Positions 43,941 through 64,000 of a stretch of 64,000 nucleotides of DNA are shown one piece after another. Within the stretch, counting starts at the first letter, position 1, and every line of letters begins with the position of its first letter. The position numbers and the translations under genes were made by a program. This stretch comes from Pelomonas sp. Root1237 (GTDB lineage Bacteria; Pseudomonadota; Gammaproteobacteria; Burkholderiales; Burkholderiaceae_C), in contig NZ_LMDK01000016.1 of NCBI RefSeq assembly GCF_001425055.1, forward strand, positions 838,773 to 902,772, read 5' to 3'. Under the pieces are notes generated by a model. That model worked only from the letters and a program-made list of their open reading frames with translations, did not search any database and had not been told where the DNA came from.

Positions 43941-43969
43941 CTGTCAGGGACTGAGCGAGTGGTGCTGGC

Positions 43970-44671: not shown

Positions 44672-44689
44672 CCTGCCTTGCAGCCGAAG

Positions 44690-47497: not shown

Positions 47498-47752
47498 GTT
47501 GAATGGCTTGCAAGAACGGCCGTCGCCCTTTCTCGCGCTCGGGCTGAGCGGCGGCAATCGCATGCCGGCACGACCGTCTCCGTCGCGCCCGGTGCTCGGA
47601 CCAGGCAACATGGCACCATCGAGGCCGGGCAGGTCAACGTGGGGACGTCCATCAAATGATTTGGATGAGAGCCGCCGCTGACCGGCGGGTCAGACGTCGA
47701 TCGTTGCTGGTCAAGCCTGGCCTGTGACTATGTTTTGGTTCAAATGGATTAA

Positions 47753-49924
47753 GTGACATTGAAGCAAGCGCTGATTTCATTCGTGCTCGTGCTGACGGCT
47801 GCAACCCAAGTTGTTGCCGAAGGCTCCGCGGCGGCTTTCCCGCAGATGCTGAAGCCGGAGGCACAGCAGGCCAAGTCGGCCCATCTGGCTGCGGACCTGC
47901 TGTCTCGCTACCACTACCGACCCCTCTCGCTCGACGACGCGTTGTCGGCCAGGATCTTCGACCAGTATTTAAAGGCGCTCGATCCGGAGAAACTGTACTT
48001 CCTGCAGTCCGACATCGATCGCCTTTCAGGCGACCGCATCTTGCTCGACAACGCGATCCTGGCTGAGGATCTGCGGGTGCCGTTCGAGGTCTTCAACCTG
48101 TACGAACGCCGGGTGGCTGAGCGGCTGACCTATGGCCGCACCTTGCTCAAGAAGGGGTTCGATTTCGGGCAAGACGAATCTTTGACGGTCGAGCGCAAGG
48201 ATCAGCCTTGGCCTGCGACCGAAGCAGAGTCCCAAGACCTCTGGCGCAAGCGCGTCAAGAACGAGTGGTTGCGGCTCAAGCTTGCCGGCAGGGACGACCC
48301 GGCCATCGTGAAGATTCTCGACAAGCGCTACGAAAGCGCATCGAAGAACCTGGGCAAGATCACAAGCGCCGACGCCTTCCAGGCCTTCATGAATGCCTAC
48401 ACGATGGCGATCGACCCACACACGAACTACCTGGGACCGCGCGCCGCGGAAAACTTCGGCATCTCCATGCGACTGTCCCTGGTGGGCATCGGCGCGCTTC
48501 TGACGCAGATCGACGACTACGCCACCGTCCGGGAGCTGGTGCCAGGAGGGCCCGCGAGCCTGTCGGGCCAGTTGAAGGTCGGCGACCGTATCGTGGGCGT
48601 CGCGCAAGGCGCCACCGGCGCCATGGAGGATGTCGTCGGCAGGCGCCTTGACGACACGGTGGCGTTGATCCGGGGCATGAAGGGTTCGACGGTTCGGCTG
48701 GACGTCCTGCCGGCCGACAGCGGGCCCGATGCGCCGAACAGGACCGTCGTACTGGTCCGCAACACCATCACAGTGCAGGACAGCGCCGCCAAGGCCAAGA
48801 TCTATTCCGTCACGACGGGCGCTGGCAAGCGCCTGGTCGGTGTGATCACCCTGCCTTCGTTCTACGAGGATACCGACGCACTCAGAAAGGGCGACAAGGA
48901 CTACCGCGGCGCAGCGCACGACGTGGGCAAGCTGCTGTTCGACATGAAGGCCCAGAAAGTAGATGGCGTGTTGATCGACTTGCGCAATGACGGCGGCGGG
49001 TCGCTGCGCCAGGCGGTGAACCTGACGGGCATGTTCGTTGGCAAGTTGCCGGTCGTTCAGACCCGAGATGCAAGAGGCAACATCACTGTCGAGAAGAACG
49101 CCGAGGCTGGTTTGGCATGGAGCGGGCCGCTGGGCGTCCTGATCAACAGGGGCTCGGCTTCGGCGTCAGAAATCTTCGCCGCGGCGATCCAAGATTACGG
49201 TCGCGGCGTGATCATCGGCGAGGGCAGCTTCGGCAAGGGCACCGTCCAGACCCTCGCCAACCTCGACCAGATCGCCAAGAACGCAGCGCCGACGTACGGT
49301 GAACTGAAGTTCACCATCGCTCAGTTTTTTCGGGTGAATGGCGGGACGACCCAACTCCGTGGCGTGACGCCAGACATCCTCTTTCCGCAAACCAGCGACG
49401 ACACCGAGTTCGGAGAGTCGAGCTACGTCAATGCCCTGCCGTGGACCAACATTCGAGCCGTGGACTACTCGCCTGTGGGTGACGTCAAAACGCAGTTGCC
49501 CCGCCTGTTGGCTTGGCACGCAGCCCGCGTCGAGCACGCCCTTGACTTCCAGAACCTGCTGCAGGATGTGGCCAAGGCACAGGAGCGTCGCAAGAACAAC
49601 GTGATTTCGCTCAGTGAATCAGTTCGACGCAAAGAACGTGCTGCCTCGGAGAAGCGCCTGGCTGCCCAGCTGGGTGAAGCGGGAAGGGGCGCGAGCGGCA
49701 CGCTGGTCGACGACGGCTTGCAGTTCAACGAACGCCAGCTGGACAAGGATCTCGCCGCTGAGAAAACCCGGAAGACCATCAACGATGCGCTTCTTGACGA
49801 GGCTGTCAGTATCCTCTCCGACAGCGCAGCATTGAAGGAAGGCCAGACCCAAACAGCAGCGAGCGCTCTACCGATCCGTCCCCAGGTGGTCATGACCTTG
49901 CCGAACGTTTCCTCTGAGAAATAG
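47753..49924 (+). CDS. prc: tail-specific C-terminal processing protease (Prc/Tsp, S41)
   Basis: A 723-residue periplasmic protease from a GTG start (47753) with a signal peptide (ALISFVLVLTAATQVVAEG). The order of domains matches Prc: N-terminal helical domain, PDZ (about 240-325, LVPGGPASLSGQLKVGDRIV), then the S41 core. Catalytic Ser470 (NRGSASASEIFAAA) and Lys495 (SFGKGTVQT) are spaced as in E. coli Tsp, with Asp481 between them. C-terminal DUF3340-like helices follow. It degrades proteins with nonpolar C termini and regulates wall hydrolases. There are no operon partners; the 255-base gap upstream shows nothing else. Confidence 0.95.
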   Translation: MTLKQALISFVLVLTAATQVVAEGSAAAFPQMLKPEAQQAKSAHLAADLLSRYHYRPLSLDDALSARIFDQYLKALDPEKLYFLQSDIDRLSGDRILLDNAILAEDLRVPFEVFNLYERRVAERLTYGRTLLKKGFDFGQDESLTVERKDQPWPATEAESQDLWRKRVKNEWLRLKLAGRDDPAIVKILDKRYESASKNLGKITSADAFQAFMNAYTMAIDPHTNYLGPRAAENFGISMRLSLVGIGALLTQIDDYATVRELVPGGPASLSGQLKVGDRIVGVAQGATGAMEDVVGRRLDDTVALIRGMKGSTVRLDVLPADSGPDAPNRTVVLVRNTITVQDSAAKAKIYSVTTGAGKRLVGVITLPSFYEDTDALRKGDKDYRGAAHDVGKLLFDMKAQKVDGVLIDLRNDGGGSLRQAVNLTGMFVGKLPVVQTRDARGNITVEKNAEAGLAWSGPLGVLINRGSASASEIFAAAIQDYGRGVIIGEGSFGKGTVQTLANLDQIAKNAAPTYGELKFTIAQFFRVNGGTTQLRGVTPDILFPQTSDDTEFGESSYVNALPWTNIRAVDYSPVGDVKTQLPRLLAWHAARVEHALDFQNLLQDVAKAQERRKNNVISLSESVRRKERAASEKRLAAQLGEAGRGASGTLVDDGLQFNERQLDKDLAAEKTRKTINDALLDEAVSILSDSAALKEGQTQTAASALPIRPQVVMTLPNVSSEK

Positions 49925-50033
49925 CCGTTGGTGGCCGAGACCTGACCTGGAGGCGGCCACGTCGAGCGGCGCGCACATTGCCGGACTCGGTGGGGATCTT
50001 CACCCAAATGCGCACGACCCCAATCAGGTTGCC

Positions 50034-51296
50034 TCAAGGGTTCGCGCCCGACATCTCCATGATCAGTCGGGTCACGAGATAGAGCCGCGGGGCGATGGAG
50101 CGGATGTCGACGTACTCGGCATCGTTGGAATGGGCGCCAAAGCCCGTGAGACCCAGGCCTTCGATCACCGGTCCTCGGGCCTGCATCGCCGCGAAGGAGG
50201 CGTCCGTGCCGCCGCCCGTGGCAACCTCCGCCACCTGCATCGCCAGGCCCAGCTCCGCGTAGATGGCCTGGGCACGCTTGGCCAGCGCCCGTGAGGCCTC
50301 GGTGGCCTCCAGCGGCGGGCGGCGCACTTCGAACTTGAGCTGCACCTTGGCGTCGGCCAGGCGCCGCTGCTGCACGCGGCGCTGCAGTTCCTTCTCCAGG
50401 CGGTCGAAGTCCGCCACACGCAAGGCGCGCGCATCGGCCTGGGCCGTGGCCTGGGCCGGGATCACGTTGCGGTTGGTGCCGGCCTGGGCCATCGTCCAGT
50501 TCAGCTTCAGGCCCGTGGCCGGCTCTGACAAGTCCTGCATCTGCAGCAGTTGATGAGCCAGTTCCGTCAACGCGTTGACGCCACCCTCCGGCCTTGCGCC
50601 GGCGTGCGAGGAGCGGCCTTCCACGCTCAGATAGGCCGAGCCGATGCCGCTGGTCGCCAGGCGCACACCGCCCTGCGCGCCGGCGCCCTCGAAGGACAGC
50701 GTCATGTCCTGGTCAGCCGCGGTGCGCGTGATGGTCGCGCGCGAGCCCGGTGAGCTGATCTCCTCGTCGCCGTTGATCAATACGGTCAGCGTGCCGTAGT
50801 CGTCAATGCCCGCCTTCTGCAACAGCGCGATCACATGCAGGATGGTGGCCACGCCCTGCTTGTCGTCCGCGATGGCCAGGCCGTAGGCGCGTTCGCCCTC
50901 GATGCGAAAGGGCTGGTCCTTCAGCATGCCCTTCAGGTAGACGGTGTCCATGTGGGCGATGAGCAGCAGCTTCTTGCTTCCCCGCCCCTTGAACTGCGCC
51001 TTCACCATCTGGCCCTGACGCTCCGGCGTGTCCTCCATGCGGTACACCTCCGTGGGTTCGATCATCGACACCTCGCCGCCCAGGGCCTTGAGCTTCCCGG
51101 CGATCAGCCCGGCCACCGCGGCCAGGCCGTCCAGGTCCTTGCTGCCGGACTCGATCTCGACCAGCGCTCGCAAGGTCTCCAGCAGCGCGGGCTGCTCCTG
51201 CTTCGCCAGGTCCTGCAGTTGCTGGGACGTGGGCGCCGCCTGGGCCAGGGAAGCCGCCAGCAACGCGGCGGCGGCGATCAATGTACGAAGTTGCAT
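50034..51296 (-). CDS. exported M20-family metallopeptidase (glutamate carboxypeptidase type)
   Basis: A 420-residue protein with a signal peptide (IAAAALLAASLAQAAP). M20 metal ligands are seen in LLIAHMDTVYLKGMLK (His and Asp), GLAIADDKQGVATIL (bridging Asp), LINGDEEISSPGSRATI (the catalytic Glu pair) and a late FGAHSNDAEYVDI (His). The dimerisation domain begins near GSAYLSVEGRSSHAGARPEG. It resembles periplasmic carboxypeptidase G2-like enzymes that release C-terminal glutamate or related residues. It is divergent from the LysR gene across the structured element. Confidence 0.93.
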   Translation of the reverse strand: MQLRTLIAAAALLAASLAQAAPTSQQLQDLAKQEQPALLETLRALVEIESGSKDLDGLAAVAGLIAGKLKALGGEVSMIEPTEVYRMEDTPERQGQMVKAQFKGRGSKKLLLIAHMDTVYLKGMLKDQPFRIEGERAYGLAIADDKQGVATILHVIALLQKAGIDDYGTLTVLINGDEEISSPGSRATITRTAADQDMTLSFEGAGAQGGVRLATSGIGSAYLSVEGRSSHAGARPEGGVNALTELAHQLLQMQDLSEPATGLKLNWTMAQAGTNRNVIPAQATAQADARALRVADFDRLEKELQRRVQQRRLADAKVQLKFEVRRPPLEATEASRALAKRAQAIYAELGLAMQVAEVATGGGTDASFAAMQARGPVIEGLGLTGFGAHSNDAEYVDIRSIAPRLYLVTRLIMEMSGANP

Positions 51297-51390: not shown

Positions 51391-51657
51391 AGGGCCTATT
51401 CGCGCTACGGCAATGGGTCGCGTTGTGACCAGAAGGGCTGCAGGCAAGTCGCAAACCGCAAGCCGTGTCATTACCCGGCGAGGATTTGCGACACAGCATC
51501 CGGCCTTTCTGGTCACAACCCTTCGGGAAGGTCCGTCGCCAGGGGCCACTCGGCGTTGCATCGCTGGCCCGCACGCGAGTGCGGGCGGCGCGCTGCGCCT
51601 TGATTGGCCACTGGCGACGGGCCTTCGCGACCCATTGCCGTAGTGCGAACAGGCCCT
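51391..51657. repeat. 267-bp branched inverted-repeat element (MITE-like or structured leader)
   Basis: The outer arms (51391-51422 and 51626-51657) are 32 bp with two mismatches, one of them G-T. They enclose two side-by-side hairpins: arms 51423-51436 with 51504-51518 (one bulge; an inner GTCGCAAA/TTTGCGAC pair), and arms 51528-51548 with 51605-51625 (two mismatches in 21; an inner GCCCGCAC/GTGCGGGC hairpin). The element ends three bases before the LysR start and lies between two divergent genes. No open frame of note. It could be a miniature transposable element or a three-way-junction RNA leader. Confidence 0.75.
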
Positions 51658-51660
51658 CCC

Positions 51661-52578
51661 ATGCGCTTTCGCTCGCCGTCGCTGGCCGAACTCCATGCCT
51701 TCGTCGCCGTGGCCGAGCTGGGCAGCTTCTCCGCCGCCTCGCAGCTGTTGTCCGTCACCCAGGGCGCAGTCAGCCGGGCGGTGCAGCGGCTCGAGTCGGA
51801 GCTGGGCCTGGCGCTGTTGGCGCGCGGCGGCGCCCAGGTCACCCCGACGCCCGAGGGCGCCAGCTACCTTGCCCGCATCAAGCCCGCCCTGGACATGCTG
51901 GAACGGGCCGTTCCCTTGCACGCGGCGCCTGCCGGCCCGTCACTGCGCATGGCGCCCGTGCCGTCGCTGTACGCGCGCTGGCTGGTGCCGCGGCTGCCGG
52001 CGTTGCAAGCGCAGCATGCGCAGCTCAAGCTCGAGTTCCGCCGCTGGCGCCACGACGACCGCTTCGAGCGCGACGACGTCGACTGCTGGATCAACCCCAA
52101 GCCAAGCGCACACAGCCGCTGGCCCGAAGGCGTCGTCGCGCAATACCTGCTCGGGCGCGAACTGGTCCCCGTGTGCCGCCCCTCGCGCGCTGCCCGGCTG
52201 ACCCGGCCGCAAGACGTGCTGCAGCACCCGCTGCTGCACCACAGCGCCCATCCCGCCGACTGGGCGCTCTGGCTCAAGGCCCAGGGCGTGCAGGCGAGCC
52301 AGCCCCAACTGGCCTCGGGCTTCGACCTGGCCGCTGCACTGATCGAGGCCGTCGTCGCCGACATGGGCATCGCGGTCGTGCAGCTCTGCCTCATCGAAAG
52401 GGAGCTGGCCGCCGGGCAGCTCGTCGTGCCGTTCAGCGGCTGGGTGTCGTCGGGGCGCGGCTTTTACCTCTGCCGGCGGGCCGACCGGGAAGGCTCTTCC
52501 GAGCTCCATGCATTCGCGCAATGGGCGGTGGCCGAGAGCCGGCGCTGGCGGCGCCAGGCCTTGGCCGCGCTCGACTGA
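51661..52578 (+). CDS. LysR-family transcriptional regulator
   Basis: A 305-residue regulator from the ATG at 51661. The N-terminal HTH (about 6-65) reads LGSFSAASQLLSVTQGAVSR followed by AVQRLESELG, and the substrate-binding domain follows (SLRMAPVPSLYARWLVPRLP, VVADMGIAVVQLCLIERELA). It belongs to the GcvA/AmpR-like group by its short N terminus. Its last 60 codons and the next 35 bases are duplicated at 61165-61365. The target could be the divergent M20 gene or genes downstream; neither is proven. Confidence 0.92.
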   Translation: MRFRSPSLAELHAFVAVAELGSFSAASQLLSVTQGAVSRAVQRLESELGLALLARGGAQVTPTPEGASYLARIKPALDMLERAVPLHAAPAGPSLRMAPVPSLYARWLVPRLPALQAQHAQLKLEFRRWRHDDRFERDDVDCWINPKPSAHSRWPEGVVAQYLLGRELVPVCRPSRAARLTRPQDVLQHPLLHHSAHPADWALWLKAQGVQASQPQLASGFDLAAALIEAVVADMGIAVVQLCLIERELAAGQLVVPFSGWVSSGRGFYLCRRADREGSSELHAFAQWAVAESRRWRRQALAALD

Positions 52579-52615
52579 CGGTCAATACACGAGAGAGAAG
52601 GTGACGTAACCCTCG
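52401..52615 (+). repeat. left direct repeat flanking the wsp region
   Basis: This covers the last part of the LysR gene and the ending of the small gene. It matches 61165-61365 in the same orientation, with runs such as GGGCCGACCGGGAAGGCTC shared exactly, and the run from TACACGAGAGAG through GAAGGTGACGTA. The right copy has a 15-base deletion, a one-base deletion and scattered substitutions. Confidence 0.8.
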
Positions 52616-52620
52616 TCCCG
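52579..52620 (-). pseudogene. 3' remnant of the small gene found whole at 61330-61578
   Basis: Read on the minus strand these bases encode the ending DEGYVTFSLVY and a stop, the same as the C terminus of the small gene at 61330 (GEGYVTFSLVY). No upstream part is present; the wspR stop follows at 52631. It is a truncated leftover at the left edge of the wsp region. Confidence 0.7.
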
Positions 52621-52630
52621 CGGCGGTCCA

Positions 52631-53665
52631 TCAATGACTGCGCTCCTGCATCACGGCGCGGTTCTTCCCGCCTCGCTTGGCCTCGTAGAGTGCCTTGTCC
52701 GCGGCTTCGATGAGTTCAAGGGATGAGCCACCGCGCTGCGGGATCATCGAGGCGCCGCCGATGCACACCGTGAGGTGTCGGGCGGGCGCCGAATCGCCCG
52801 GCGCCAGTTCAAGGTCCTGCACGGCCAGGCGAAGTTTTTCGGCCATGAAACTGGCCCCGGCCGCCGGCGTGGTCGTCATGACCAGCGCGAACTCCTCGCC
52901 ACCGTAGCGCGCCACGAGATCGGTCGAGCGGTTGGCATTCAGGTGCAAGGTGCCTGCCACCTTCTGCAAGGCCTCGTCGCCGGCCGGGTGGCCGTAGGTG
53001 TCGTTGTACTGCTTGAAATCGTCGATATCGACCATCAGCACGGAGAGCGTGCTCTGGTCGCGCAGCGCCCGGCTCCATTCCATCTGGATGTGCTCGTTGA
53101 AGCGGCGCCGGTTGCTGATCTCGGTGAGCCCGTCCACGTAGGTCAACCGCTGCAGCTCGATGTTCAACTCCGTCAGCTGCTGCTGGCTCTCGCGCAGGGC
53201 CCGGTACGCCTCGTCGCGCTGCAACTGGATCGAATACCCCCTGGAGTGGTAACGGATGCGCGCCACCAGCTCGACCTGGCTCGGCAGCTTGACGAGATAG
53301 TCGTTGGCACCGGCCTCGAAGGCTTCGCTTTTCACCGCCGGGTCCTCGGTGGTCGACAGCACCACGATCGGGATGTCCATGGTGGCCGCGTTGGCGCGGT
53401 AGCGGCGAACCAGCGTCAGGCCGTCGATGCCGGGCATGACCAGATCCTGCAGGATCACCGTCGGCCCGATCTGCTCGGCCAAGGCGATCGCCTTCCCGGG
53501 ATCGGCGCAGTAGTGGAAATCGATGTCCGCGTGGCTCAGCAGCGCGCGGCGCACGGCCTCGCCGATCATCGCCTGGTCGTCGACCAGCAGCACCATGACG
53601 GGACGGCGCCTGGCCGCCGATGGCTTCGGGAGGTCGAGGCTCTTCATATCAAGGTCGATCATCAT
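52631..53665 (-). CDS. wspR: response regulator-diguanylate cyclase WspR
   Basis: A 344-residue output protein of the Wsp system. The receiver domain (about 23-140) has Asp29-Asp30, phosphoacceptor Asp74 (ILQDLVMPG) and Lys126. A helical linker follows (about 145-175). The cyclase domain (about 176-344) has VDIDDFKQYNDTYGH, GGEEF (255-259), and the I-site RSTD just ahead of it (246-249), so it is expected to be active and product-inhibited. It makes c-di-GMP when phosphorylated by WspE. It overlaps wspF by 17 bases and is the last gene of the operon. Confidence 0.96.
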   Translation of the reverse strand: MMIDLDMKSLDLPKPSAARRRPVMVLLVDDQAMIGEAVRRALLSHADIDFHYCADPGKAIALAEQIGPTVILQDLVMPGIDGLTLVRRYRANAATMDIPIVVLSTTEDPAVKSEAFEAGANDYLVKLPSQVELVARIRYHSRGYSIQLQRDEAYRALRESQQQLTELNIELQRLTYVDGLTEISNRRRFNEHIQMEWSRALRDQSTLSVLMVDIDDFKQYNDTYGHPAGDEALQKVAGTLHLNANRSTDLVARYGGEEFALVMTTTPAAGASFMAEKLRLAVQDLELAPGDSAPARHLTVCIGGASMIPQRGGSSLELIEAADKALYEAKRGGKNRAVMQERSH

Positions 53666-54698
53666 GGCCTCCTGGTTCTGGTTGCATGGAAAGTGCAGCG
53701 CGCAGCCGCGGTGCGATCGCGTCGATGGGCAGGACGTCCACCGCAGCGTCCAGCGCCACGGCGGCCCTCGGCATGCCGTAGACGGCGCAACTCGCCTGGT
53801 CCTGCGCGATGGTGTGGTGCCCCTGGTCGCGCAGCGCCTTCAAACCGAGTGCGCCGTCGCGTCCCATGCCGGTCAACAGCACGCCGACGACGCCACCCCG
53901 CCACAGCGCACAGGCGCTGTGGAAGAACACGTCGACCGAGGGACGGTAGACGTACTCCCGCGGGATCGGCGTGTACGCCAGGCACCCGCCCGCCACAAGC
54001 CGCAGATGGTCGTTGGTGGCGGCGAGCAACACCACGCCCGCGGCGGGCCGGTCGCCTTCCGCGGCCACCCGCACCGGCAGCGTCGAATGCTGCCCGAGCC
54101 ACTGCGCCATGCCGGCGGCGAACTGCTCGTCCACATGCTGCACGATGACGACGGCACCCGGGAAATCTGCCGGCAGGCCGTGCAGCAAGGTGGCCAGCGC
54201 CGCCGGGCCACCCGCCGAGGCGCCGATGGCGATCAAGGGTTGCGGGCAGCTCTTGCGCGACCTCGCAGCGGACCGGGCAGCGTCGACCCGGGCCGGGGCG
54301 CTGTCGCCGATCAGCTTGCCGATGATCTCGATCTTCGCCAGCAGCGGTGCGGCGCCTGCGTGCGGGTCGGTGCCGGCCAGCGTCGGCGTGTCGACGACGT
54401 CGAGCGCGCCGTGGCCCATCGCGTCGAAGACGCGGGCGGTGTTGGCACCCATGTTGGAGGTGACGAGCAGGATGGCGCACGGCGTCTCGGCCATGATGCG
54501 CCGTGTCGCTTCGACCCCGTCGACCACCGGCATCAGCAGGTCCATCAGCACGAGGTCGGGCCGCTGTTCCGCGCAGCGCTGCACCGCCTGCGCGCCGTTC
54601 TCGGCCACCCAGATGACGCGGTGTTCCGGCCTCAGCGCCAGCACGCGCCGCAAGGCTTCCACGGCAAGCGGCAGGTCGTTGACGATGGCGATCTTCAT
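53649..54698 (-). CDS. wspF: CheB-type methylesterase WspF
   Basis: A 349-residue protein with an N-terminal receiver (phosphoacceptor Asp53, VLMDLLMPVVDG) and a C-terminal methylesterase domain with Ser161 (IGASAGGP), His188 (VQHVDEQF) and Asp281 (GMGRDGALG). It removes methyl groups from WspA and so dampens signalling; its loss in related bacteria locks the system on. It overlaps wspE by four bases and wspR by 17. Confidence 0.96.
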   Translation of the reverse strand: MKIAIVNDLPLAVEALRRVLALRPEHRVIWVAENGAQAVQRCAEQRPDLVLMDLLMPVVDGVEATRRIMAETPCAILLVTSNMGANTARVFDAMGHGALDVVDTPTLAGTDPHAGAAPLLAKIEIIGKLIGDSAPARVDAARSAARSRKSCPQPLIAIGASAGGPAALATLLHGLPADFPGAVVIVQHVDEQFAAGMAQWLGQHSTLPVRVAAEGDRPAAGVVLLAATNDHLRLVAGGCLAYTPIPREYVYRPSVDVFFHSACALWRGGVVGVLLTGMGRDGALGLKALRDQGHHTIAQDQASCAVYGMPRAAVALDAAVDVLPIDAIAPRLRAALSMQPEPGGHDDRP

Positions 54699-56878
54699 GT
54701 GACGACCGCCTCGCCGATCAGATCCACGGCCGCCTGCAGCAGCGTCTCGTCCTGAAAGCTGCCCTTGGTCAGGTAGTGGTTGGCCCCGGCTTCCAACCCG
54801 CGCCGGCGGTCCTCGTCGCGATCCTTGTACGACATGATCATCACCGGCAGCGACTTCAGGTTCGGATCCTTCCTGACCAGCGTGACCAGCTCGATGCCGT
54901 CCATGCGCGGCATGTCGATGTCGGTCACCAGCAGGTCGAAGTGGCCGGTGCGCACCGCATTCCAGCCATCCATGCCGTCGACGGCCACCTCGACGTCGAA
55001 GCCGTGCTGGGCCAGCAGCTTGCGTTCGAGTTCACGCACCGTCAGCGAGTCGTCGACCACCAGCACGCGCTTGCGCTTGCTCGCCCCGGCGGCGCCGGTG
55101 CCTGGCCGCACCTGGCTCAGCTGGCCGGAGGCAATCAGCTTCTGCACCGAGCGGATCATGTCCTCGATGTCGATGATGAGCACCGGCGATCCGTCCTCCA
55201 TCAGCGCGCCGGCGCTGACGTCCTTGACCTTGCCCAGGCGCGGGTCGAGCGCCTGCACCACCAGCTCGCATTCGCCGAGGAAACGGTCCACCACCAGGCC
55301 ATAGATGTCCTCGTGGTCGCCGACGACGAGGACCGACAAGTCGCCCGCCAAGGCCCGGGGCGCGTCCACCTGCAGCAACTGGTGCGCAGTGACCAGGCCG
55401 ACGCGTCGCCCGTCGACTTCGACGTGCTGCCGCCCCTCGAGCAGTTCGACCCGCTGTGGCGCTACTTTCAGGGCGCGGAAAATGCGCGCCAGCGGGAAGG
55501 CGTAGGGCTCGCCGCCGATGTGCACGAGCAGGGTGCGCACGACCGACAGCGTGAGCGGCAATTGCAGCTGGAAGCGCGTGCCCAGGCCCGGCTGCGTCGA
55601 CACGCGAACGCTGCCGCGCACCTGTTTGACCATGTCCTGCACGACGTCGAGCCCGACGCCCCGCCCGGAGACCTCGGTCACCCGCCGGCTGAGCGTGAAA
55701 CCCGGCAGGAACAGGAACTCCAGCAGCTCGGACTCCGACAGCTCGGCCGCGACCTCGGGCTTGGCGTGGCGGCGCTCGACGACGGCGCTGCGCAGTGCCT
55801 CCAAGGCGATGCCGCCGCCGTCATCGGACACGGTAATCTGCAACGCCCCGGCGCTGTGGCGCGCCTCGAGCCGCACGACGCCTTCCGCGGGTTTGCCCAC
55901 GGCATGTCGCTGCGCGGGCGATTCGATGCCATGGTCGAGCGCATTGCGCAGCAGGTGGCCAAGCGGTGCATCCAGCTTCTCGAGCACGTCGCGGTCCACC
56001 GGCGTCGCGGCACCGACGATGTCGAGCCTGACCTGCTTGCCCAGCGAACGCCCCAGGTCGCGCAGCATGCGGGGCATGGTTTGAACACCGTCGGCGAATG
56101 GCCGCATCCGACAGGCCACCGCCTCGTCGTACAACCGGCGCGAGAGGTCGGCCGAGCGCCGCTCGAAAGTTTCCAGATCGGCCAACCCCTGAGCCAACAG
56201 CTGCTCGCACTCAAGCATGCGGCGCCTGACCTCGGGCGGTGCGGCCCGCTCTTGCGCAGCCTCATGCTGAAGCCGCTTGAGCCGCAGCAGCGAGTTGGCG
56301 AAGGGCGTGAGCCACCTTGCGGCCACCAATGATTCGCCGGCCAGCCCGAGCAGCCGATTCAGGTTGTCGGCGGTGACGCGCACGACGCGGTCCGAGGCGT
56401 CGCGCACCGGCACCGCCGCGGGGGGCGCCACCGCTGCCTCCAGCACCGGCGCTGCCGCGTCGGGCGCCGGGTCGTCTTCGTCGCTGGCCAGCATCGCGGT
56501 CTTCAGGGCCTCGACGAAGGCCTTCACCTGCAGCGCGTCGCCAGGGTCCGTCCCGGCGGTCCGGCCCAGGCGCGCGAGCAGGTCCACACCCGCGAGCAAC
56601 GGGTCGATCTGACGTTGGCGCAGCCGCAACCGGCCCGTTTGAGCGGCGACGAAGCAGTCTTCCATCGCATGCGCCACTTCCACCGCGGCGCCAATGCCGA
56701 CGATGCTGGCGGCACCCTTGAGCGAATGGGCGGCGCGCATGCAGGACTCGAGCTGGTCGGCGGCGTCCGGACTGCGCTCCAGGGCCAGCAGTCCCTGCGT
56801 CAGCAACGGGGCGTGGTTCTCCACTTCGATGCGAAACAGGTCCAGCATCGACAGGTCGCTGAGATCGACGCTGCTCAT
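54695..56878 (-). CDS. wspE: hybrid CheA-type histidine kinase WspE
   Basis: A 727-residue protein. The N-terminal HPt domain has His51 (RAAHSLKGAASIVG). CheA dimerisation and ATPase domains follow (HLLRNALDHGIESPAQRHAV, DDGGGIALEAL, GRGVGLDVVQDM), then a CheW-like domain, and a C-terminal receiver (about 605-727) with Asp653 (LLVTDIDMPRMDG). It phosphorylates WspR and WspF. The gap to wspD (56879-56948) holds hairpins. Confidence 0.96.
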   Translation of the reverse strand: MSSVDLSDLSMLDLFRIEVENHAPLLTQGLLALERSPDAADQLESCMRAAHSLKGAASIVGIGAAVEVAHAMEDCFVAAQTGRLRLRQRQIDPLLAGVDLLARLGRTAGTDPGDALQVKAFVEALKTAMLASDEDDPAPDAAAPVLEAAVAPPAAVPVRDASDRVVRVTADNLNRLLGLAGESLVAARWLTPFANSLLRLKRLQHEAAQERAAPPEVRRRMLECEQLLAQGLADLETFERRSADLSRRLYDEAVACRMRPFADGVQTMPRMLRDLGRSLGKQVRLDIVGAATPVDRDVLEKLDAPLGHLLRNALDHGIESPAQRHAVGKPAEGVVRLEARHSAGALQITVSDDGGGIALEALRSAVVERRHAKPEVAAELSESELLEFLFLPGFTLSRRVTEVSGRGVGLDVVQDMVKQVRGSVRVSTQPGLGTRFQLQLPLTLSVVRTLLVHIGGEPYAFPLARIFRALKVAPQRVELLEGRQHVEVDGRRVGLVTAHQLLQVDAPRALAGDLSVLVVGDHEDIYGLVVDRFLGECELVVQALDPRLGKVKDVSAGALMEDGSPVLIIDIEDMIRSVQKLIASGQLSQVRPGTGAAGASKRKRVLVVDDSLTVRELERKLLAQHGFDVEVAVDGMDGWNAVRTGHFDLLVTDIDMPRMDGIELVTLVRKDPNLKSLPVMIMSYKDRDEDRRRGLEAGANHYLTKGSFQDETLLQAAVDLIGEAVVT

Positions 56879-56919
56879 TGGGGCTCCCTAGGCGCTGCGC
56901 GCCATCCCGCCAAGCGGGA

Positions 56920-56952
56920 ATGAGCCCCTTCGGGCGGCCGGGCGGGGCTCAT
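56920..56952 (-). repeat. intercistronic hairpin between wspD and wspE
   Basis: Arms ATGAGCCCC (56920-56928) and GGGGCTCAT (56944-56952) pair perfectly around a GC-rich loop, overlapping the wspD stop. A second short hairpin, TCCCGCCAAGCGGGA, lies at about 56905-56919. No T-run follows, so a role in RNA stability or spacing is more likely than termination. Confidence 0.6.
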
Positions 56953-57683
56953 GCGAGGCCCCGTTGAATGGTGTAGAGCAGCAGTTGCTCGTCGAGCAGG
57001 CCGACCGCGCGCTCATTGCTGCCCCCTGGCGCTTCTCGAGGGGTTCGCCCGCGTTCGGGCGGCCGGGTGGCGGGTTCGTGCCAGGCCAGGATCGCCTTGG
57101 AGTAGGTCGCCGTGGCACGCGCGACGGTGGCAGGCACTGGCTTCAGCGTGGCCGGATCGAAGCGCCGGATGCCGTGCATTTCGTCGACCGCGAAGCCCAG
57201 GCGCTGGCCGTCCAGGCCGATCACCACCAGGCGCCGCAGTGTCAGGCGTTGCCGTGCGTGCCCCGTCTCGGCGACGTGCGCCAGGCCGAGGACGCTGCCC
57301 AGCGATACGCAGACCAGCAACTCGCCCCGCACGTTGGCCACACCCTGCACGACGCCGCCGCGCCGGCTCGGCAGCGAATGGATCGCCGGCAAGGCGGCGA
57401 CTTCCTGGAACACCGGCGTCGGCAGGGCCAGCCATTCGGCACCGATGCGAAAGATGACCGCCGAGCCCACCTCGGCCAGCCCAGCCTCGTGAGCCTGCGC
57501 CATGTGGCGGGTGCAGTCGGCGAGGTAGCCGGGCGGCGCCTGCCGGTCAAGTAAGGCCAGCGCGGCGGCGGCGTGGGTTGGACAGTGGCTGCAGTGCACG
57601 TGCTGCTTCAGTTCCGGGCAGGAACCATCGCCGCGAATGCCGATGCGGTTCCAGCAGTCGTCCAGGGCCACTTGCATGTTCAT
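56949..57683 (-). CDS. wspD: CheW-type coupling protein WspD
   Basis: A 244-residue adaptor from the ATG at 57683. An N-terminal Cys-rich stretch (about 15-45, PELKQHVHCSHCPTHAA) precedes the CheW domain (about 65-220, FRIGAEWLALPTPVFQEVAA, VANVRGELLVCVSLGSVLGL). Near the C terminus, between ILAW and ERAVGLLDEQLLLYTIQRG, lies an insert of about 22 residues rich in Pro and Arg (HEPATRPPERGRTPREAP) that I do not expect in WspD. It links WspA to WspE. It starts right after the wspC stop. Confidence 0.9.
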   Translation of the reverse strand: MNMQVALDDCWNRIGIRGDGSCPELKQHVHCSHCPTHAAAALALLDRQAPPGYLADCTRHMAQAHEAGLAEVGSAVIFRIGAEWLALPTPVFQEVAALPAIHSLPSRRGGVVQGVANVRGELLVCVSLGSVLGLAHVAETGHARQRLTLRRLVVIGLDGQRLGFAVDEMHGIRRFDPATLKPVPATVARATATYSKAILAWHEPATRPPERGRTPREAPGGSNERAVGLLDEQLLLYTIQRGLA

Positions 57684-57684
57684 G

Positions 57685-58929
57685 TCAAGCCCCGCCTGGT
57701 TGCAGCCGGCTCGCGCGCTGCTGCAAGCGCCGCGCGCCGGCCGCGTCGCCCTGCTTTTGCAGCAGCAGGGCAAGGTGGATCAACGCCTCGTGGTGATTCG
57801 GGTTCAGATAGAGCGCCTTGCGGTACTGGTCGGCCGCATCGCCCGTGTTGCCGCTTGCGTCGCGCACCAGGCCGAGCAGATTGAACGCATCGGCCGTAGG
57901 CCCGTGCTCGCGCAGATGTGCTTCACAGTGCGACGCAGCCTCGGCGAGGTGGCCCTGGTCGGCCAGGCGCTGTGCGTGGGCTATGCCCGTCGCCGCTTCG
58001 GCCCGCACAGTCGCCTGCGGCGCGGTAGCGGGGGGCGCCACCCGGGGCCGAGCGGGCCGCGGGGGCGCGGCCACCGGGGCCGGAGCACGTACGGGCCTGG
58101 GTGGCGCCGGGGTTGCACGGAGCTTGATGACGCTGCCGGGCGCCGGCCCCTTGCGGAAGGCAAACGCGAGCGGAAGCTTTGCAGAGACGAAGCCGTGATC
58201 CGACAGCAGGGCCGTCTCCGACGGGCCGACGAACAGCCAGCCGCGCGGCGCAAGCAGCCGGCCCAGCACCGCGATGGCGCGGTCCTGCGTGGCGCGGTCG
58301 AAGTAGATCAGCACATTGCGGCAGAAGATGACGTCGTAGAGCCCCGTCCCGGCCACCAGGCCGTCCAGCAGGTTGCCCGGTCGAAATTGCACGAGCCCGC
58401 GCACCGCCTCCGTCGGGCTGTGGCCGCCCGCCGTCGCGATGAAGTGGCGATCACGGAACGCCAGGTCGCTGCCGCGAAACGAATTTCGGCCGTAGACCGC
58501 AACCTGCGCCCGCGCCAGCGCACGCAGGCTGATGTCGACGGCATCGATGCGCAGCGCATTGGCCGGAAAGCCGGCGTCGAGCAATGCCATGGCCATCGAA
58601 TAGGGCTCCTCGCCGGTCGCGCACGGCACGCTCAGCAAGCGCAGCACGCCCTGCGCCTGAGCAGGCGCTTCCTCGCCGGCCAGGCGCGCCAGCGCCACGA
58701 AGGCTGCCGGGTCGCGGAAGAACCAGGTCTCGGGCACGACCACCGCCTCGATGAGTTCCTGCAACTCGACGCTCGAGCCGCAGAGCCGTTCCCAGTAGGC
58801 CTGCGCGTCCGCCAGCCCGCAGGCCGACAGCCGCTCCTGCACCGCACGCTCGACGGCCGCCGAACCGATCGAGGCCGCATCCAGGCCCATCGTCTGCTTG
58901 AGCAATTGCTCGAAACGGGTCATGTCCAT
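57685..58929 (-). CDS. wspC: CheR-type methyltransferase with TPR, WspC
   Basis: A 414-residue protein from the ATG at 58929, overlapping the wspB stop by one base. The methyltransferase part (about 1-270) has VVVPETWFFRDPAAF and LSVPCATGEEPYSMAMALLD (S-adenosylmethionine loop, about 103-111) and FCRNVLIYFDRATQDRAIAV. A Pro/Arg-rich linker (about 285-330) leads to a C-terminal TPR domain (HAQRLADQGHLAEAASHCEA, DQYRKALYLNPNHHEALIHL). It methylates WspA. Confidence 0.95.
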   Translation of the reverse strand: MDMTRFEQLLKQTMGLDAASIGSAAVERAVQERLSACGLADAQAYWERLCGSSVELQELIEAVVVPETWFFRDPAAFVALARLAGEEAPAQAQGVLRLLSVPCATGEEPYSMAMALLDAGFPANALRIDAVDISLRALARAQVAVYGRNSFRGSDLAFRDRHFIATAGGHSPTEAVRGLVQFRPGNLLDGLVAGTGLYDVIFCRNVLIYFDRATQDRAIAVLGRLLAPRGWLFVGPSETALLSDHGFVSAKLPLAFAFRKGPAPGSVIKLRATPAPPRPVRAPAPVAAPPRPARPRVAPPATAPQATVRAEAATGIAHAQRLADQGHLAEAASHCEAHLREHGPTADAFNLLGLVRDASGNTGDAADQYRKALYLNPNHHEALIHLALLLQKQGDAAGARRLQQRASRLQPGGA

Positions 58930-59390
58930 CACGCTGCCCCGGCCTCGTCGAACAACATCGCGCGCAGCGACGCCGGAAGCAGGCCCTGCACCTCGACGCG
59001 CTGGATCAGCCCCTGCGCGTCGGTCGTCACCGGGCCGAGCCAGGGCGCTGCGTCGACGTTGACGCCGGCCGCAACGAACTCCGCCGGCTCGCGGCGCAGC
59101 GTCTGCGTCGCCCTTTCGACCAGCAGGCCGAGCAGGTGCGGGCCGGCTGCCGGACCGGGGAAAGTCACGAGCACGATGCGCGTGCTCAGGCGGTTCGCTG
59201 ACGGGCGGCCGAGCGCGAGTTCGCTGAGGTCGATGACCGGCACCGGCACACCTCGGTAGTCGCACAGGCCGGCCACCGTCGACGGCGCGAGCGGGATCGC
59301 CTTCACGCCAAGCCGCGGCAGGACGGCGACGACCTGGCCCGCGTCGAGGGCGTAGCGTTCACTGCCGATCTGAAAGAGGATGAACAGCAT
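58929..59390 (-). CDS. wspB: CheW-type coupling protein WspB
   Basis: A 153-residue CheW-domain protein: MLFILFQIGSERYALDAGQV opens the beta-barrel fold and VAGLCDYRGVPVPVIDLSEL is the conserved core. It scaffolds the chemoreceptor WspA. It sits 18 bases after the wspA stop and overlaps wspC by one base. Confidence 0.95.
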   Translation of the reverse strand: MLFILFQIGSERYALDAGQVVAVLPRLGVKAIPLAPSTVAGLCDYRGVPVPVIDLSELALGRPSANRLSTRIVLVTFPGPAAGPHLLGLLVERATQTLRREPAEFVAAGVNVDAAPWLGPVTTDAQGLIQRVEVQGLLPASLRAMLFDEAGAA

Positions 59391-59408
59391 CCGGCCGGCC
59401 CTCGGGCC

Positions 59409-61046
59409 TCAGGCCTGCGCCAGTTTGAAGCGCGAGACGCCGCTGCGCAGCCCGCCAGCCGCCTGGTGCAAGCCGTCGATCGCCTGGCCCGACTGGCGCA
59501 GCGAGTCGACGGTCTGCTGGGCGGCTTCGGTCAACTGTGTCAGTGCCTGGCTGATCTGCTCGGCGCCGGTCGCCTGCGTCTGCACGCTTTCGCTGACGGC
59601 CTCGAAACGCGGCGCCAGGGCCTGCACCTGCGAGATGATCTGCGACAGCTGCGCGCCGACCTGCTGCACCTCCTGCATGCCGCGGCGCACCTCCTCGGAA
59701 AACTTGTCCATGCCCATCACGCCGGCCGACACCGCGGACTGCATCTCCTTGACCGTCTGTTCGATGTCGTAGGTGGCGACTGCGGTCTGGTCGGCGAGCC
59801 GGCGGATCTCCGTGGCAACCACGCCAAACCCGCGCCCATATTCGCCGGCTTTCTCGGCCTCGATGGCCGCGTTCAGCGACAGCAGGTTGGTCTGGTCGGC
59901 CACCTTGGTGATGGTGGTGACGACCTGGTTGATGTTGCCGGCCTTGTCGCTCAACACGGCGAGCTTGGCGTTGATCGAGCCGACCGCCTCCATCACGTTG
60001 TGCATGGTCTCGCTCATGCGCTGCAAACCTTCCTGCCCGCCGCCGGCGAGCAAGGCGGTCTCCTCGGCGACCTGCGACACCTCGCTCATCGTCCTCACGA
60101 GCGCGCGCGACGTGGCGGAAATTTCCTTGGAGGTGGCGCCGATCTCGGTGGTCGTCGCAGCGATCTCGCTGGCGGTGGCCTGCTGCTCCTTGGATGTGGC
60201 GGCGATCTCGGTCGCCGAGGTGTTGACCTGGATGCCGGACTGCTGGACCTGGCCGAACAGCTCCGTCAGCTTCTCCGTCATCCGGTTGAACCCCTGCGCC
60301 AGCGTGCCGAACTCGTCGCGCCGCTCCAGGTTCATCCGCTGCGTCAAGTCACCGGTGCTGATCGCGTCGGTGGCGGTGAGCAACCGGTGCAACGGCCGGG
60401 TGATCGATTGCAGCAGGACATAGCCGAGCGCAAGCGCCAGCAACAGTGCCGCGGCGAGACTGACCAGGATGGCCATGTTGGCCATTGCGACCGCGCTCAT
60501 GATCTGCCGGCCTGCCGCCTCGGCATCGGCCATGTTGTAGTCGACGACGGACTGCACGGCGGCGCGCAGCTTGTTGTACTGCGGGTCAAGCTGGCTGTGC
60601 AGCAGCGCCCGGGCCTCGTCGCGCTTGCTGGCCGCGCTCAGCTTCAGGATGTCGTCCTGCGTGCGCAGGTAAGGATTGGCAACGTGGAGGTTCTTGAACG
60701 CCTCGTAGTTCTCGCGATCCTCGGCCGAGAAGATGGTGCTCTCGTAGCTCTTGGCCAGGGTCTCCAGCCGAGCCCGGTTGACCTGCAACTGCGACTCGAT
60801 CTTGCGCGCCTCGGTTTCATCCTTCTCGAACACCTGCTCCTGGGTCAACGCGAAGTTCTCTTGCCAGGCGGCCAGCAGCTGGCTGCTGTACAGCATGCCG
60901 GGCAAGGCCTCCTTCTGGATGACGGTCGCGTCCTGCGCCACGCGAGCGAGGCGGGAATAGATGACGGCGCCCATGACGATCATCAACACCAGCACGGCGG
61001 CGAAGCTGGCGAGGATGCGGTGCCTCACGGTCAAGATATTCATCAA
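59409..61046 (-). CDS. wspA: methyl-accepting chemoreceptor WspA
   Basis: A 545-residue chemoreceptor. The first membrane helix (about 10-30) is followed by a periplasmic sensor with a four-helix-bundle-type pattern (about 33-189) and a second helix (about 190-213). HAMP (about 214-266) and the long signalling coiled coil follow, with the hairpin tip at [21 protein letters not shown] and [13 protein letters not shown]. Wsp receptors respond to contact with surfaces. It is the first gene of the operon; the promoter should lie in 61047-61164. Confidence 0.95.
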
Positions 61047-61164
61047 GTTCGGCTCCCTCGCCCTGCGTCATCCAGCCCGGCGGGCAAGTCGACGCAATGC
61101 AGCTCACCGTACGCCCTGTCTAACGCGATCTCCGTGCGGTGCCGAACATCCCGAGCGAAGAAAT

Positions 61165-61365
61165 GGAGTTGGCCGCCGGGCGGTTCGTCGTGCCTTCAGC
61201 GGCTTTTTGTCATCGGGGGCGCGGCTTCTACCTCTGCCAATGGGCCGACCGGGAAGGCTCGTCCGAGCTGCAAGCCTTCGCGCAATGGGCAATGGCCCAG
61301 AGCCGGCACTGGCGGCGCTCGATTGACGATCAGTACACGAGAGAGAAGGTGACGTAGCCCTCACC
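61165..61365 (+). pseudogene. truncated, frameshifted 3' fragment of the LysR gene (right direct repeat)
   Basis: It matches the end of LysR 51661-52578 (GRGFYLC, then ADREGSSEL, then FAQWA). A one-base deletion (CCTTCAGCGG for CCGTTCAGCGG) shifts the frame for a short stretch, and 15 bases are missing before the stop. No 5' part or start is present. Its downstream end overlaps the tail of the intact small gene. It marks the right edge of the wsp region. Confidence 0.8.
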
Positions 61366-61578
61366 CTCCTCGGCCAGATGCTTGATGCCCGACGTACCGG
61401 CACTGATGCCGATGAACCTGAGCTGCCTTTGAGTTTCCTTGGCGTGCTTGGCCAGTGCCAACGCCGCCGTCATCCTGTCGTTGGCATGAGGCGCCAGGTC
61501 GTTGTAGATAAGCTCGAGGTTCGCTCCGGCTGTCATCAGCGAACTCAGGAATGCGGGTTGGAGCGTGTTGTTGTGCAT
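61330..61578 (-). CDS. small protein of unknown function
   Basis: An 82-residue protein from the ATG at 61578, with ribosome site GGAGAG ahead of it. It reads MHNNTLQPAFLSSLMTAG and then LIYNDLAPHANDRMTAALAL, and ends in GEGYVTFSLVY. No signal peptide or membrane helix. No family recognised; the compact size and mixed strand/helix pattern suggest a folded cytoplasmic protein. Its last 12 codons also occur at 52579-52620. Confidence 0.7.
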   Translation of the reverse strand: MHNNTLQPAFLSSLMTAGANLELIYNDLAPHANDRMTAALALAKHAKETQRQLRFIGISAGTSGIKHLAEEGEGYVTFSLVY

Positions 61579-61666
61579 CTGGTCTCTCCGTGGGTTGAGG
61601 GCAGCATAGTCTGCGAATTCCAGCACGACGACAGCCCGTTGTCCCGCCATGGCACCATATTGGCCC

Positions 61667-62005
61667 ATGCCCCTGCACATCGCCTGCCTCTGCGCCGCCT
61701 GGTGCCGCACCTGCGAGTCCTACCAAGAAATTTTCGAAGCCGCCTGCGCCGAACTGCCCCAGGCCGGCCTGCATGTGCGCTGGATCGACATCGAGGACGA
61801 AGCCGAACTCATCGGCGACCTGGACATCGAGACCTTCCCCACGCTGCTCATCGCCGACGGCGAGCACATCCGCTTCGCCGGGCCGTTGACGCCGCAGCCC
61901 GAGACGCTCAGGCGCGTGCTGCGGGCGCACCTGGCGGACGCGAGGCCCATGCCCGTCGAACCGGCCTACGTCGAGCTGGCCTCGCGCCTGCGCAGCGAAG
62001 CCTGA
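61667..62005 (+). CDS. thioredoxin-family protein
   Basis: A 112-residue thioredoxin-fold protein from the ATG at 61667 (an ATG at 61649 is also possible). The redox motif is CLCAAWCRTCESY with the active CRTC. WIDIEDEAELIGDLDIETFP contains the conserved cis-Pro turn (TFPTLLIADGE). Without a signal peptide it should be cytoplasmic. It is divergent from the small gene; no partner is evident. Confidence 0.88.
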   Translation: MPLHIACLCAAWCRTCESYQEIFEAACAELPQAGLHVRWIDIEDEAELIGDLDIETFPTLLIADGEHIRFAGPLTPQPETLRRVLRAHLADARPMPVEPAYVELASRLRSEA

Positions 62006-62178
62006 GCTGGCCAGGGTCAAGGCCGCCCAAAACGGCCTGTCCGAGCTGACAAAAGCTGCTGCCTTTCCACGATGCGGCAGAACCCACGTTTTTCATGGGG
62101 GAGATGTAGGACTGCGCTGACAGAGACACGCGACGCATGCTGCTGTGCCGGCGGCGCGCCGGCACCCAAAGTCGGAGC

Positions 62179-64000
62179 ATGTCCGCACCGCCGCAACACC
62201 CGCCGCATGACCTGACGCCCACCGGCGCTGCACAAGCCTTCCTACGCCTCGCCGGCGGCGCCGAAGCGGCCGCTGCCCCGGTACGAGCGGTGCAGTTCGG
62301 TGCCGACCGCTTTGCCGAACATGGCCGCAGCCTGGCCGCGGCCCAGCGGGTGGACGACCCGCGCCAGCAGCCCCGCCCCTTCTCGCCGCGGCTGCGCAGC
62401 AATCTGCAGGTCTGGGCCGCCGCCCTGAGCGTGCTGTCCGAGGAAGGCCTGCAGGCCGACATCGACCCCGCCCACGCCTGGCTGCTGGACAACGCCCGCA
62501 TCGTGCAGCAGCAGCTCGACGAGGTGCTGCACGACCTGCCGCGCAGCTACTTCCAGCGCCTGCCCCGGCTGGCCGACGAACCGCTTCAGGGCCTGCCGCG
62601 CATCTATGGCGTCGCCTGGGCCTGGGTGGCCCACGCGGACAGCTCGCTGGACCTGGCCCTGCTGCACCACTTCCTGGCCGGCCACCACGAGGCCGAGGCG
62701 CTGACATTGCGCGAGCTGTGGGCCCTGCCGTCCACGCTGCGCGTCGTGCTGGTGGAGAACCTGCGCCGCCTGGCCGAGCGCGCCGCCTGGCGTCATCTGG
62801 CGCGCCGCGCCGCCCAGCACCTGTTCGAGGCGCTGCCGCAGCTGGACGCGGCAGCGGTGCGCAATCAGCTGCAGCAATGGCAATCGGCCTGGCCGCGCGA
62901 CCCTGCCATCACGGCCCTGGCCCTGCGCCTGCACGAGCGGCTGACCGACCGCGCCCTGGGCCAAGCCGAGCAGCGTGACTCCGATGACTCGTCCTGGGCG
63001 GCCGTGCACGCCTGGCTGGCCGAGGCGCTGCCCGACCCAGCCGCTGCGCAGGCCAGCGAGCAGGCCGAGAGCGCGGCCGACCACCAGAGCATTCGCAACG
63101 CCATCAGCAGCCTGCGCAACCTCGGCGCGGCCAACTGGGCCGGACTGTTCGAGGCTGTGCACCCGACGCTGCGCGCCCTGGGCCACATTGCCGTCTACCG
63201 CCAGGAGCACGAGGCCACGCGCGACATGGCCATGCACGCCATCGAGGCCCTGACCGAGCGCCACAACGTACCCGAGGCCGACGTGGCCCAGGTGCTGCGC
63301 CTGCTTTGCAACGACCCCGCCTGGGCCGAGGACGCAGAAGAGCGCGCCCCGCTGTACTGGCTGTCCGGCCCTGGCCGCGAACGCCTGCTGAGCGAACTTC
63401 GCCTCAAGCCTACCGCCGGCGAGCGCTTTGCCGCCGGGCTGCGCCGCCACAGTGTCGCCCTCTATCTGACCAGCCTGGCAGGGTTGCTGATCCTGGCCGA
63501 GCTGACGTTGCTGCTGCTGGGCCTGCCCCCGGGCGCCGGCTGGCCCATGGTGGTGGCGGCCGTGCTGCTGTCGCTGCTGCCGGCCAGCGAGGCCGTGGTT
63601 GCGCTGGCCAACCGCCTCATCAGCGAGTCCGCAGCGCCGGCGCAGCTGCCGCGCCTGACCTGGCATCACGGCATTCCGGCCGGGGCGCGCAGCCTGGTTG
63701 TCATTCCCTGCATGCTGACGCGCTCCAAGGGCATCGCGACCCTGCTCGCCCAGCTGGAGCGCCACCACCTGGCCAACCTGGAAGACGAGGCGCAGTTCGC
63801 GCTGCTCAGCGACTGGACCGATGCCAAGGCCGAGCACCAGCCCCAGGACGCGGGCCTGCTCGCCCAGGCGCGCGCCGGCATCGAGGCGTTGAACCAGCGC
63901 CACGGCACGGCCTGCGAGGGCCGGCCGCGTTTCCTGCTGCTGCACCGCGAGCGGCGCTGGAGCGAGACCGAGCAGCGCTGGATCGGCTGGGAGCGCAAGC
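62179..64000 (+). CDS. cyclic beta-1,2-glucan synthase-like (NdvB) protein, 5' part
   Basis: From the ATG at 62179 (an in-frame ATG at 62137 is an alternative) the frame runs 607 codons to the right edge without a stop. The start region, FSPRLRSNLQVWAAALSVLS and QQQLDEVLHDLPRSYFQRLP, matches the N-terminal part of NdvB-type glucan synthases, as does GVAWAWVAHADSSLDLALLH. Two hydrophobic helices near 425-475 follow, then CMLTRSKGIATLLAQLERHH. These giant enzymes make cyclic glucans for osmoadaptation and host contact. The catalytic GH94 end lies beyond the window. Confidence 0.82.
   Translation, partial: MSAPPQHPPHDLTPTGAAQAFLRLAGGAEAAAAPVRAVQFGADRFAEHGRSLAAAQRVDDPRQQPRPFSPRLRSNLQVWAAALSVLSEEGLQADIDPAHAWLLDNARIVQQQLDEVLHDLPRSYFQRLPRLADEPLQGLPRIYGVAWAWVAHADSSLDLALLHHFLAGHHEAEALTLRELWALPSTLRVVLVENLRRLAERAAWRHLARRAAQHLFEALPQLDAAAVRNQLQQWQSAWPRDPAITALALRLHERLTDRALGQAEQRDSDDSSWAAVHAWLAEALPDPAAAQASEQAESAADHQSIRNAISSLRNLGAANWAGLFEAVHPTLRALGHIAVYRQEHEATRDMAMHAIEALTERHNVPEADVAQVLRLLCNDPAWAEDAEERAPLYWLSGPGRERLLSELRLKPTAGERFAAGLRRHSVALYLTSLAGLLILAELTLLLLGLPPGAGWPMVVAAVLLSLLPASEAVVALANRLISESAAPAQLPRLTWHHGIPAGARSLVVIPCMLTRSKGIATLLAQLERHHLANLEDEAQFALLSDWTDAKAEHQPQDAGLLAQARAGIEALNQRHGTACEGRPRFLLLHRERRWSETEQRWIGWERK

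Follow-up and report, generated by a model that had tools for sequence, protein, structure and literature searches.

A wsp operon probably inserted between a LysR-family gene and a small gene, within two diverged copies of its target, in Pelomonas sp. Root1237

The wsp operon and the repeats around it

In Pelomonas sp. Root1237, a complete wsp operon is bracketed by two diverged direct repeats that carry complementary ends of a LysR-family gene and a small gene. The locus lies in a stretch of 64,000 nucleotides, called here the window, which covers positions 838,773 to 902,772 of contig NZ_LMDK01000016.1 (assembly GCF_001425055.1). The operon itself runs from 52631 to 61043 on the minus strand and comprises seven open frames in the order A-B-C-D-E-F-R, all with the expected domains (Table 1), in agreement with an earlier note, made from the sequence alone, that had placed a complete wspABCDEFR between the repeats. 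A methyl-accepting chemotaxis protein (MCP) receptor, two CheW-like proteins, a CheR-TPR methyltransferase, a hybrid CheA kinase, a CheB methylesterase and a REC-GGDEF protein are thus found in one operon, which is the membership of a WspR-type Wsp system. WspR shows a GGEEF active-site motif at residue 255, and ahead of it an RSTD motif that we take to be the RxxD inhibitory-site motif. In Wsp systems WspA senses surface contact, WspE phosphorylates WspR, WspR makes cyclic di-GMP (c-di-GMP), and WspC and WspF adapt the receptor; judged by its parts, the operon of the window should act like other Wsp systems. All seven wsp genes were matched in 64 of the 175 loci examined, and among these 64 the order was ABCDEFR on one strand in 53, with R first in six, BCADEFR in four and scattered in one. 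A promoter and terminator scan did no better than shuffled sequence (0 promoters against a mean of 0.4; five terminators against a mean of 4.0).

The 219 bp that end just beyond the LysR gene recur on the other side of the operon, on the same strand, with 178 of 202 aligned bases identical, a divergence of 12%. Sixteen bases of the left copy (52551–52566) are absent from the right one, and two further insertions or deletions (indels) of one base separate the copies. Local alignment of the two copies scores 134.5, none of 200 shuffles exceeding 17, a repeat finder recovers the same pair in three pieces, and the left copy used as a query against the whole genome finds two places only at E ≤ 0.001. 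As the earlier note had described, the left repeat holds the end of the intact LysR gene together with the last codons of the small gene, of which 10 codons and the stop are seen on the minus strand (EGYVTFSLVY stop), and the right repeat holds a broken LysR end beside the intact small gene. This LysR remnant covers residues about 246–298 (~53 recognisable codons) and is damaged by two single-base indels, after which the frame is restored, and by the 16-bp deletion. The repeat pair with complementary gene ends around the wsp operon is confirmed as real, and the fragments of the small gene in the left copy and of LysR in the right copy would be leftovers without function. The outer bounds first proposed for the structure, 52401–61365, are off by 3–5 bases, the structure itself being upheld.

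Table 1. Features of the wsp locus, with positions in the window
Feature	Position	Strand	Remarks
Peptidase gene	50034–51296	minus	Leftmost of the gene series described
LysR-family regulator, intact, 305 amino acids	51661–52578	plus	Pfam HTH_1, LysR_substrate (scan from earlier start 51604); 3' end opens the left repeat
Left copy of 219-bp target	52396–52614	plus	3' end of LysR, an intergenic gap of 3 bases, then the final 10 codons of the small gene with its stop
Inserted segment, 8545 bp	52615–61159		wsp operon, 16 bp past the wspR stop and 116 bp upstream of wspA
wspR, receiver-GGDEF diguanylate cyclase	52631–53665	minus	Pfam Response_reg, GGDEF
wspF, CheB-type methylesterase	53649–54698	minus	Pfam CheB_methylest, Response_reg; 97% to Roseateles sp. 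P5_D6
wspE, hybrid CheA-type kinase	54695–56878	minus	Pfam Hpt, HATPase_c, CheW, Response_reg
wspD, CheW-like	56949–57683 (start codon 57683 or 57677)	minus	Pfam CheW, scanned from earlier start
wspC, CheR methyltransferase with TPR	57685–58929	minus	Pfam CheR, TPR_2, scanned from earlier start
wspB, CheW-like	58929–59390	minus	Pfam CheW
wspA, 4HB/HAMP/MCP receptor	59409–61043	minus	Pfam 4HB_MCP_1, HAMP, MCPsignal
Right copy of target	61160–61362	plus	Decayed LysR 3' end and end of the small gene
Small gene, intact, 82 amino acids	61330–61578	minus	No Pfam or NCBIfam match
Thioredoxin-like gene	61649–62005	plus	Next host gene rightward; synteny common to G255 and G262

The empty site in the genus

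The genus sample consisted of 20 genomes, that of Root1237 (G000) included. LysR was found at E ≤ 1e-30 in three of them (the own genome, G255 and G262), the small gene in five (the same three plus G254 and G259) and a close WspF only in the own genome, the matches in the other 19 reaching at most 37% near full length and up to 41% as partial alignments. In G255, a LysR remnant and the small gene are convergent and adjacent, with 3 bases between their stop codons (8798 and 8802 of its locus, L061), and are followed by the thioredoxin-like gene; there is no wsp there. Positions 51889–52614 of the window align to L061 9484–8766 at 90% and positions 61160–64000 to L061 8984–6129 at 92%, and because these two flank alignments overlap, both window copies map to one 219-bp stretch, L061 8766–8984. 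The inserted segment has no blastn match to L061 or to L062, the locus of G262. The latter genome retains the peptidase gene, LysR and the thioredoxin-like gene, lacks wsp between them and has an unrelated stretch where the small gene would stand. The relative with adjacent LysR and small gene and no wsp that the earlier note had proposed to look for is thus provided by G255, and the presence of wsp and the repeats at this place in all relatives, which that note had named as the contrary outcome, is not observed, both G255 and G262 being without wsp here.

For the wider searches the family and order genome sets are samples, and the candidates scored per genome were two for WspE (399 family genomes), eight for WspF (250 family genomes) and five for both WspF among 399 order genomes and LysR among 399 family genomes. 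LysR was found at E ≤ 1e-60 in 33 of 399 family genomes, at no more than 54% apart from the own genome and G255, and its nearest named proteins, among the best 120 of 242, belong to Pelomonas saccharophila and Roseateles, which would point to a Roseateles-like host. The small gene has 165 database relatives at E ≤ 1e-6; none of the 120 listed carries a precomputed Pfam domain, and the named ones among these 120 come from Rhizobacter, Roseateles, Paucibacter, Piscinibacter and Pelomonas. In G254, G259, G262 and G223, the last from another genus, its surroundings share little else with the window locus, and since it stands in such differing contexts the small gene moves too.

Distribution and origin of the wsp genes

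At E ≤ 1e-190, WspE was found in two of 399 family genomes, the own one and G674 (86%). The latter is the Rhizobacter sp. metagenome-assembled genome (MAG) behind locus L095, since L207, taken from G674, lies letter for letter within reversed L095. WspF matches outside the own genome do not exceed 44% in the 250 family genomes; among the 399 order genomes 32 have WspF at E ≤ 1e-55, and 12 of these, all from other families, do so at 54–64%. Among the best 120 of 7,882 WspF matches is that of Roseateles sp. P5_D6 (97%), and metagenomic relatives stand at 84–90%. The wsp contig loci number at least 80, the chromosomes of Roseateles sp. P5_D6 and Variovorax lying outside the locus set.

Between the window and the Rhizobacter MAG, four-fold degenerate sites differ at 253 of 955 positions in wspC-D-E-F-R and at 251 of 601 in gyrB plus parE (p = 5e-10 with sites taken as independent), in a host comparison made of one genus pair and two genes. 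wspA and wspB lie beyond the MAG contig end and wspC is partial, those parts standing outside the count; SsuD, searched in G674 as a further host gene, was not found there. The proteins agree with this difference, WspE being at 86% and GyrB at 81%. As wsp is less diverged than the host genes, it moved between these lineages after their split. A midpoint-rooted WspF tree of 58 selected rows (the window, 32 of the 120 listed proteins and 25 loci) pairs the window with Roseateles sp. P5_D6 in a starred clade of 28 rows that includes Rhizobacter and Variovorax. Another Roseateles WspF (P0029) falls outside this clade, which suggests more than one wsp gain in Roseateles. The comparison of wsp and host gene histories that the earlier note had recommended therefore reveals a conflict, in the four-fold differences and in the WspF tree, and the wsp operon appears to have been horizontally acquired from a related beta-proteobacterium.

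WspE relatives were found on 29 of 72,556 plasmid records, the best at 78% in Variovorax paradoxus; on a 1.19-Mb plasmid of that species wsp stands in another context. Plasmid carriage as the source was rejected, the Variovorax plasmid locus having neither the small gene nor a LysR above 60%. The same holds for the Rhizobacter MAG locus, whose wspA side runs off the contig and where another signalling-type gene, judged by eye, follows wspR on the opposite strand. Base composition was also rejected as a mark of foreign origin: guanine plus cytosine (GC) per kb is 0.654–0.715 in the insert and 0.644–0.726 in its neighbours, with no contrast.

Age of the insertion

The LysR parts of the left copy, the right copy and G255 were compared, with G262 as outgroup, over 156 columns. 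Private changes number 13 in the right copy (codon positions 5/5/3), five in the left copy (1/0/4), six in G255 (0/2/4) and 16 in G262, and the spread over codon positions in the right copy differs from that in the left copy plus G255 (Fisher p = 0.04). Ten of the 13 right-copy changes, some of them silent, fall in codons of residues that are invariant across the own LysR and 14 orthologues. One column is shared by the right copy and G255, and in one further column these two agree and the left copy and G262 each differ. In the small-gene tail, the left copy agrees with G255 at one site against the right and outgroup copies, and at another the right copy agrees with G255 while the outgroups are mixed. 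Since no site joins left and right against G255 and the changes are blind to codon position, the right copy has lacked function through much of the period after the lineages of the window and G255 parted.

Over four local genes the window and G255 differ at 59 of 285 four-fold sites, and on this clock the right-copy branch amounts to 0.69 (0.37–1.18) of the time since the split, a figure that is rough because the local genes evolve faster than gyrB (42 of 393 differences) and parE (67 of 376). With the right LysR tail drifting as a pseudogene for about that share of the time, the insertion is old, and it may fall before or after the G255 split. The earlier note had read the differences between the repeats as a sign either of an old event or of copies from different sources; the pseudogene-like decay speaks for the former and narrows this choice without settling it.

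Mechanism and alternative explanations

Most probably, the wsp operon inserted between the LysR gene and the small gene and left two copies of a 219-bp target, which is the reading that the earlier note had put forward and which the empty site in G255 and the conflict between wsp and host genes support. The ancestral order would have been LysR (plus), small gene (minus) and thioredoxin-like gene (plus), as kept in G255, and an 8545-bp piece from a related beta-proteobacterium, with the wsp operon as its sole cargo, would have entered at the convergent ends of the first two. Integration would have doubled the target, so that LysR remained intact at the left end and the small gene at the right end, an outcome that selection may have favoured. 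Behind the repeats, the empty site, the rarity of wsp in relatives, the wsp/host conflict and the decay of the right tail, which are observed, we infer a recombination mechanism for which the first choice would be a single RecA-type crossover with a fragment that had circularised and carried a short host-like stretch, and the second choice a replication-repair template switch that copied the 219 bp twice.

Several points weigh against this reading or loosen its parts. The circle model requires a donor in which wsp adjoins a host-like stretch of 219 bp, and the loci examined include neither such a donor nor any donor flank. Left and right agree against G255 in none of the 156 columns, which together with the 12% divergence allows an insertion before the G255 split and a later loss there. 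Of the 13 right-copy changes, three lie side by side (52442–52444) and may be one event. The LysR gene of G255 is itself truncated at its 5' end by a deletion (L061 about 9485) that takes most of the peptidase gene and joins the remnants. Only 20 genus genomes stand behind the rarity and empty-site evidence, and the WspF tree, with its root at the midpoint, carries a long-branch warning elsewhere.

That wsp and the right copy arrived together from a sister strain or species already bearing wsp at this place, by homologous joining on the right and illegitimate joining on the left, is a possibility worth keeping in view, if on the unlikely side. The repeats would then have been diverged from the start, and it is consistent with this that the right copy differs from the left at 24 of 202 positions and from G255 at equally many (24 of 202), that two to three sites join it with G255 against the left copy, and that homology-facilitated illegitimate recombination is described in the available text of PMC3240628. 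However, the right-only changes, blind to codon position and with 10 of 13 in codons of invariant residues, look like those of a local pseudogene and not of a foreign working LysR; a foreign LysR as the source of the right tail was rejected, its joint best matches among 120 listed proteins being the own LysR and P0122 at 70% each. The right flank is also not the more diverged one, standing at 90.8–93.6% to G255 while the left flank stands at 89.8–90.6%. An insertion earlier than the split of G000 and G255, followed by loss of wsp from G255 through recombination between the then near-identical repeats, is unlikely: it would account for the lack, in 156 columns, of any site that joins the left and right copies against G255, and for a right-copy age of 0.69 whose interval reaches 1.18, but it calls for one additional loss event, wsp is likewise missing here from G262, another carrier of LysR, and the other 19 of 20 genus genomes have no close WspF.

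A transposon or an integrase-type island with a 219-bp target duplication is highly improbable. The compact insert between direct repeats has the outline of such an element, yet the genes identified in it are the seven wsp genes only, with no transposase or integrase among them (other overlapping open reading frames lay outside the scan). The 60-base ends of the insert gave no terminal inverted repeat (score 6, with no shuffle made), and transposon-like ends were rejected, there being just a 10-base imperfect inverted match. To our knowledge, a duplication of 219 bp is far beyond what transposases leave. An ancestral wsp in the genus, with repeats that arose by a chance local duplication, is more improbable than any of these and can hardly be reconciled with the lack of a close WspF in 19 of 19 other genus genomes, with two congeners that keep the flanking genes and have no wsp between them, or with a wsp operon less diverged than gyrB and parE from the Rhizobacter MAG.

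If insertion with doubling of the target is taken as a model, compact operons might move without mobile-element genes and be captured by events that re-copy ~200–250 bp at convergent gene ends and leave the neighbours intact, a generalisation that is doubtful at present. Elsewhere in the same genome, the 3' end of gyrB (252 bp) is duplicated on contig C1 (L220 2731–2982 and 5664–5898, 88%), the duplicate lying ~2.7 kb downstream; a sulfotransferase-like gene separates the copies, and type I restriction-modification genes follow. It is perhaps a second diverged target duplication; part of gyrB reads N at this place and its frame breaks, so that an assembly fault is possible.

Relation to known systems

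Horizontal transfer of Wsp between genera has already been described (PMC8552884), and the Wsp systems of Pseudomonas and beta-proteobacteria treated in the available text of that work resemble the present one in their seven components, common order, sporadic spread and intergeneric transfer. Its main text, as available, contains none of the terms "Variovorax", "Comamonad" and "insertion", whereas for the window locus the point of insertion, its empty counterpart and the doubled target can each be placed to the base. Single crossovers in Escherichia coli gave duplications of 109–950 bp in 14 sequenced clones, according to the available text of PMC3240628, and these integrants are alike in that the target, 219 bp long here, is repeated in direct orientation on either side of the foreign DNA. 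They stem from plasmid conjugation; at the window locus both circle and donor are hypothetical, and the copies are 12% diverged. The merodiploids of pneumococcal transformation, in the available text of PMC3784515, are alike in that a single short fragment, once taken up, can cause recipient DNA to be duplicated.

The window locus is therefore a new, well-resolved and roughly dated instance of wsp transfer, of a kind of event already known, and a clear but fairly ordinary horizontal gene gain. Its value lies in a base-resolved view of a locus before and after it gained an entire c-di-GMP surface-sensing pathway, with an empty site, a target duplication by which both neighbouring genes were spared, and a LysR tail whose decay serves as a molecular clock. 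Cases resolved to this degree help to ask how operons without mobility genes of their own enter genomes.

Neighbouring features of the window

Between the peptidase gene and LysR stands a 267-bp element (51391–51657) that resembles a miniature inverted-repeat transposable element, with 32-bp terminal inverted repeats that are 94% complementary. Matches to it of 150 bases or more occur at 20 other places in the own genome, 17 of them spanning at least 249 bases at 74–90%, one at full length at 67% and two in part, and the element is missing from the corresponding place in G262. Further to the left, positions 43949–49960 are variable: G255 has ~7.8 kb of other DNA there, including a piece of an IS4/5-type transposase, and G262 only ~2.5 kb. 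GC is 0.61–0.63 across 46000–49999, 46000 being the start of the profile, and a Prc-type peptidase gene lies in that part.

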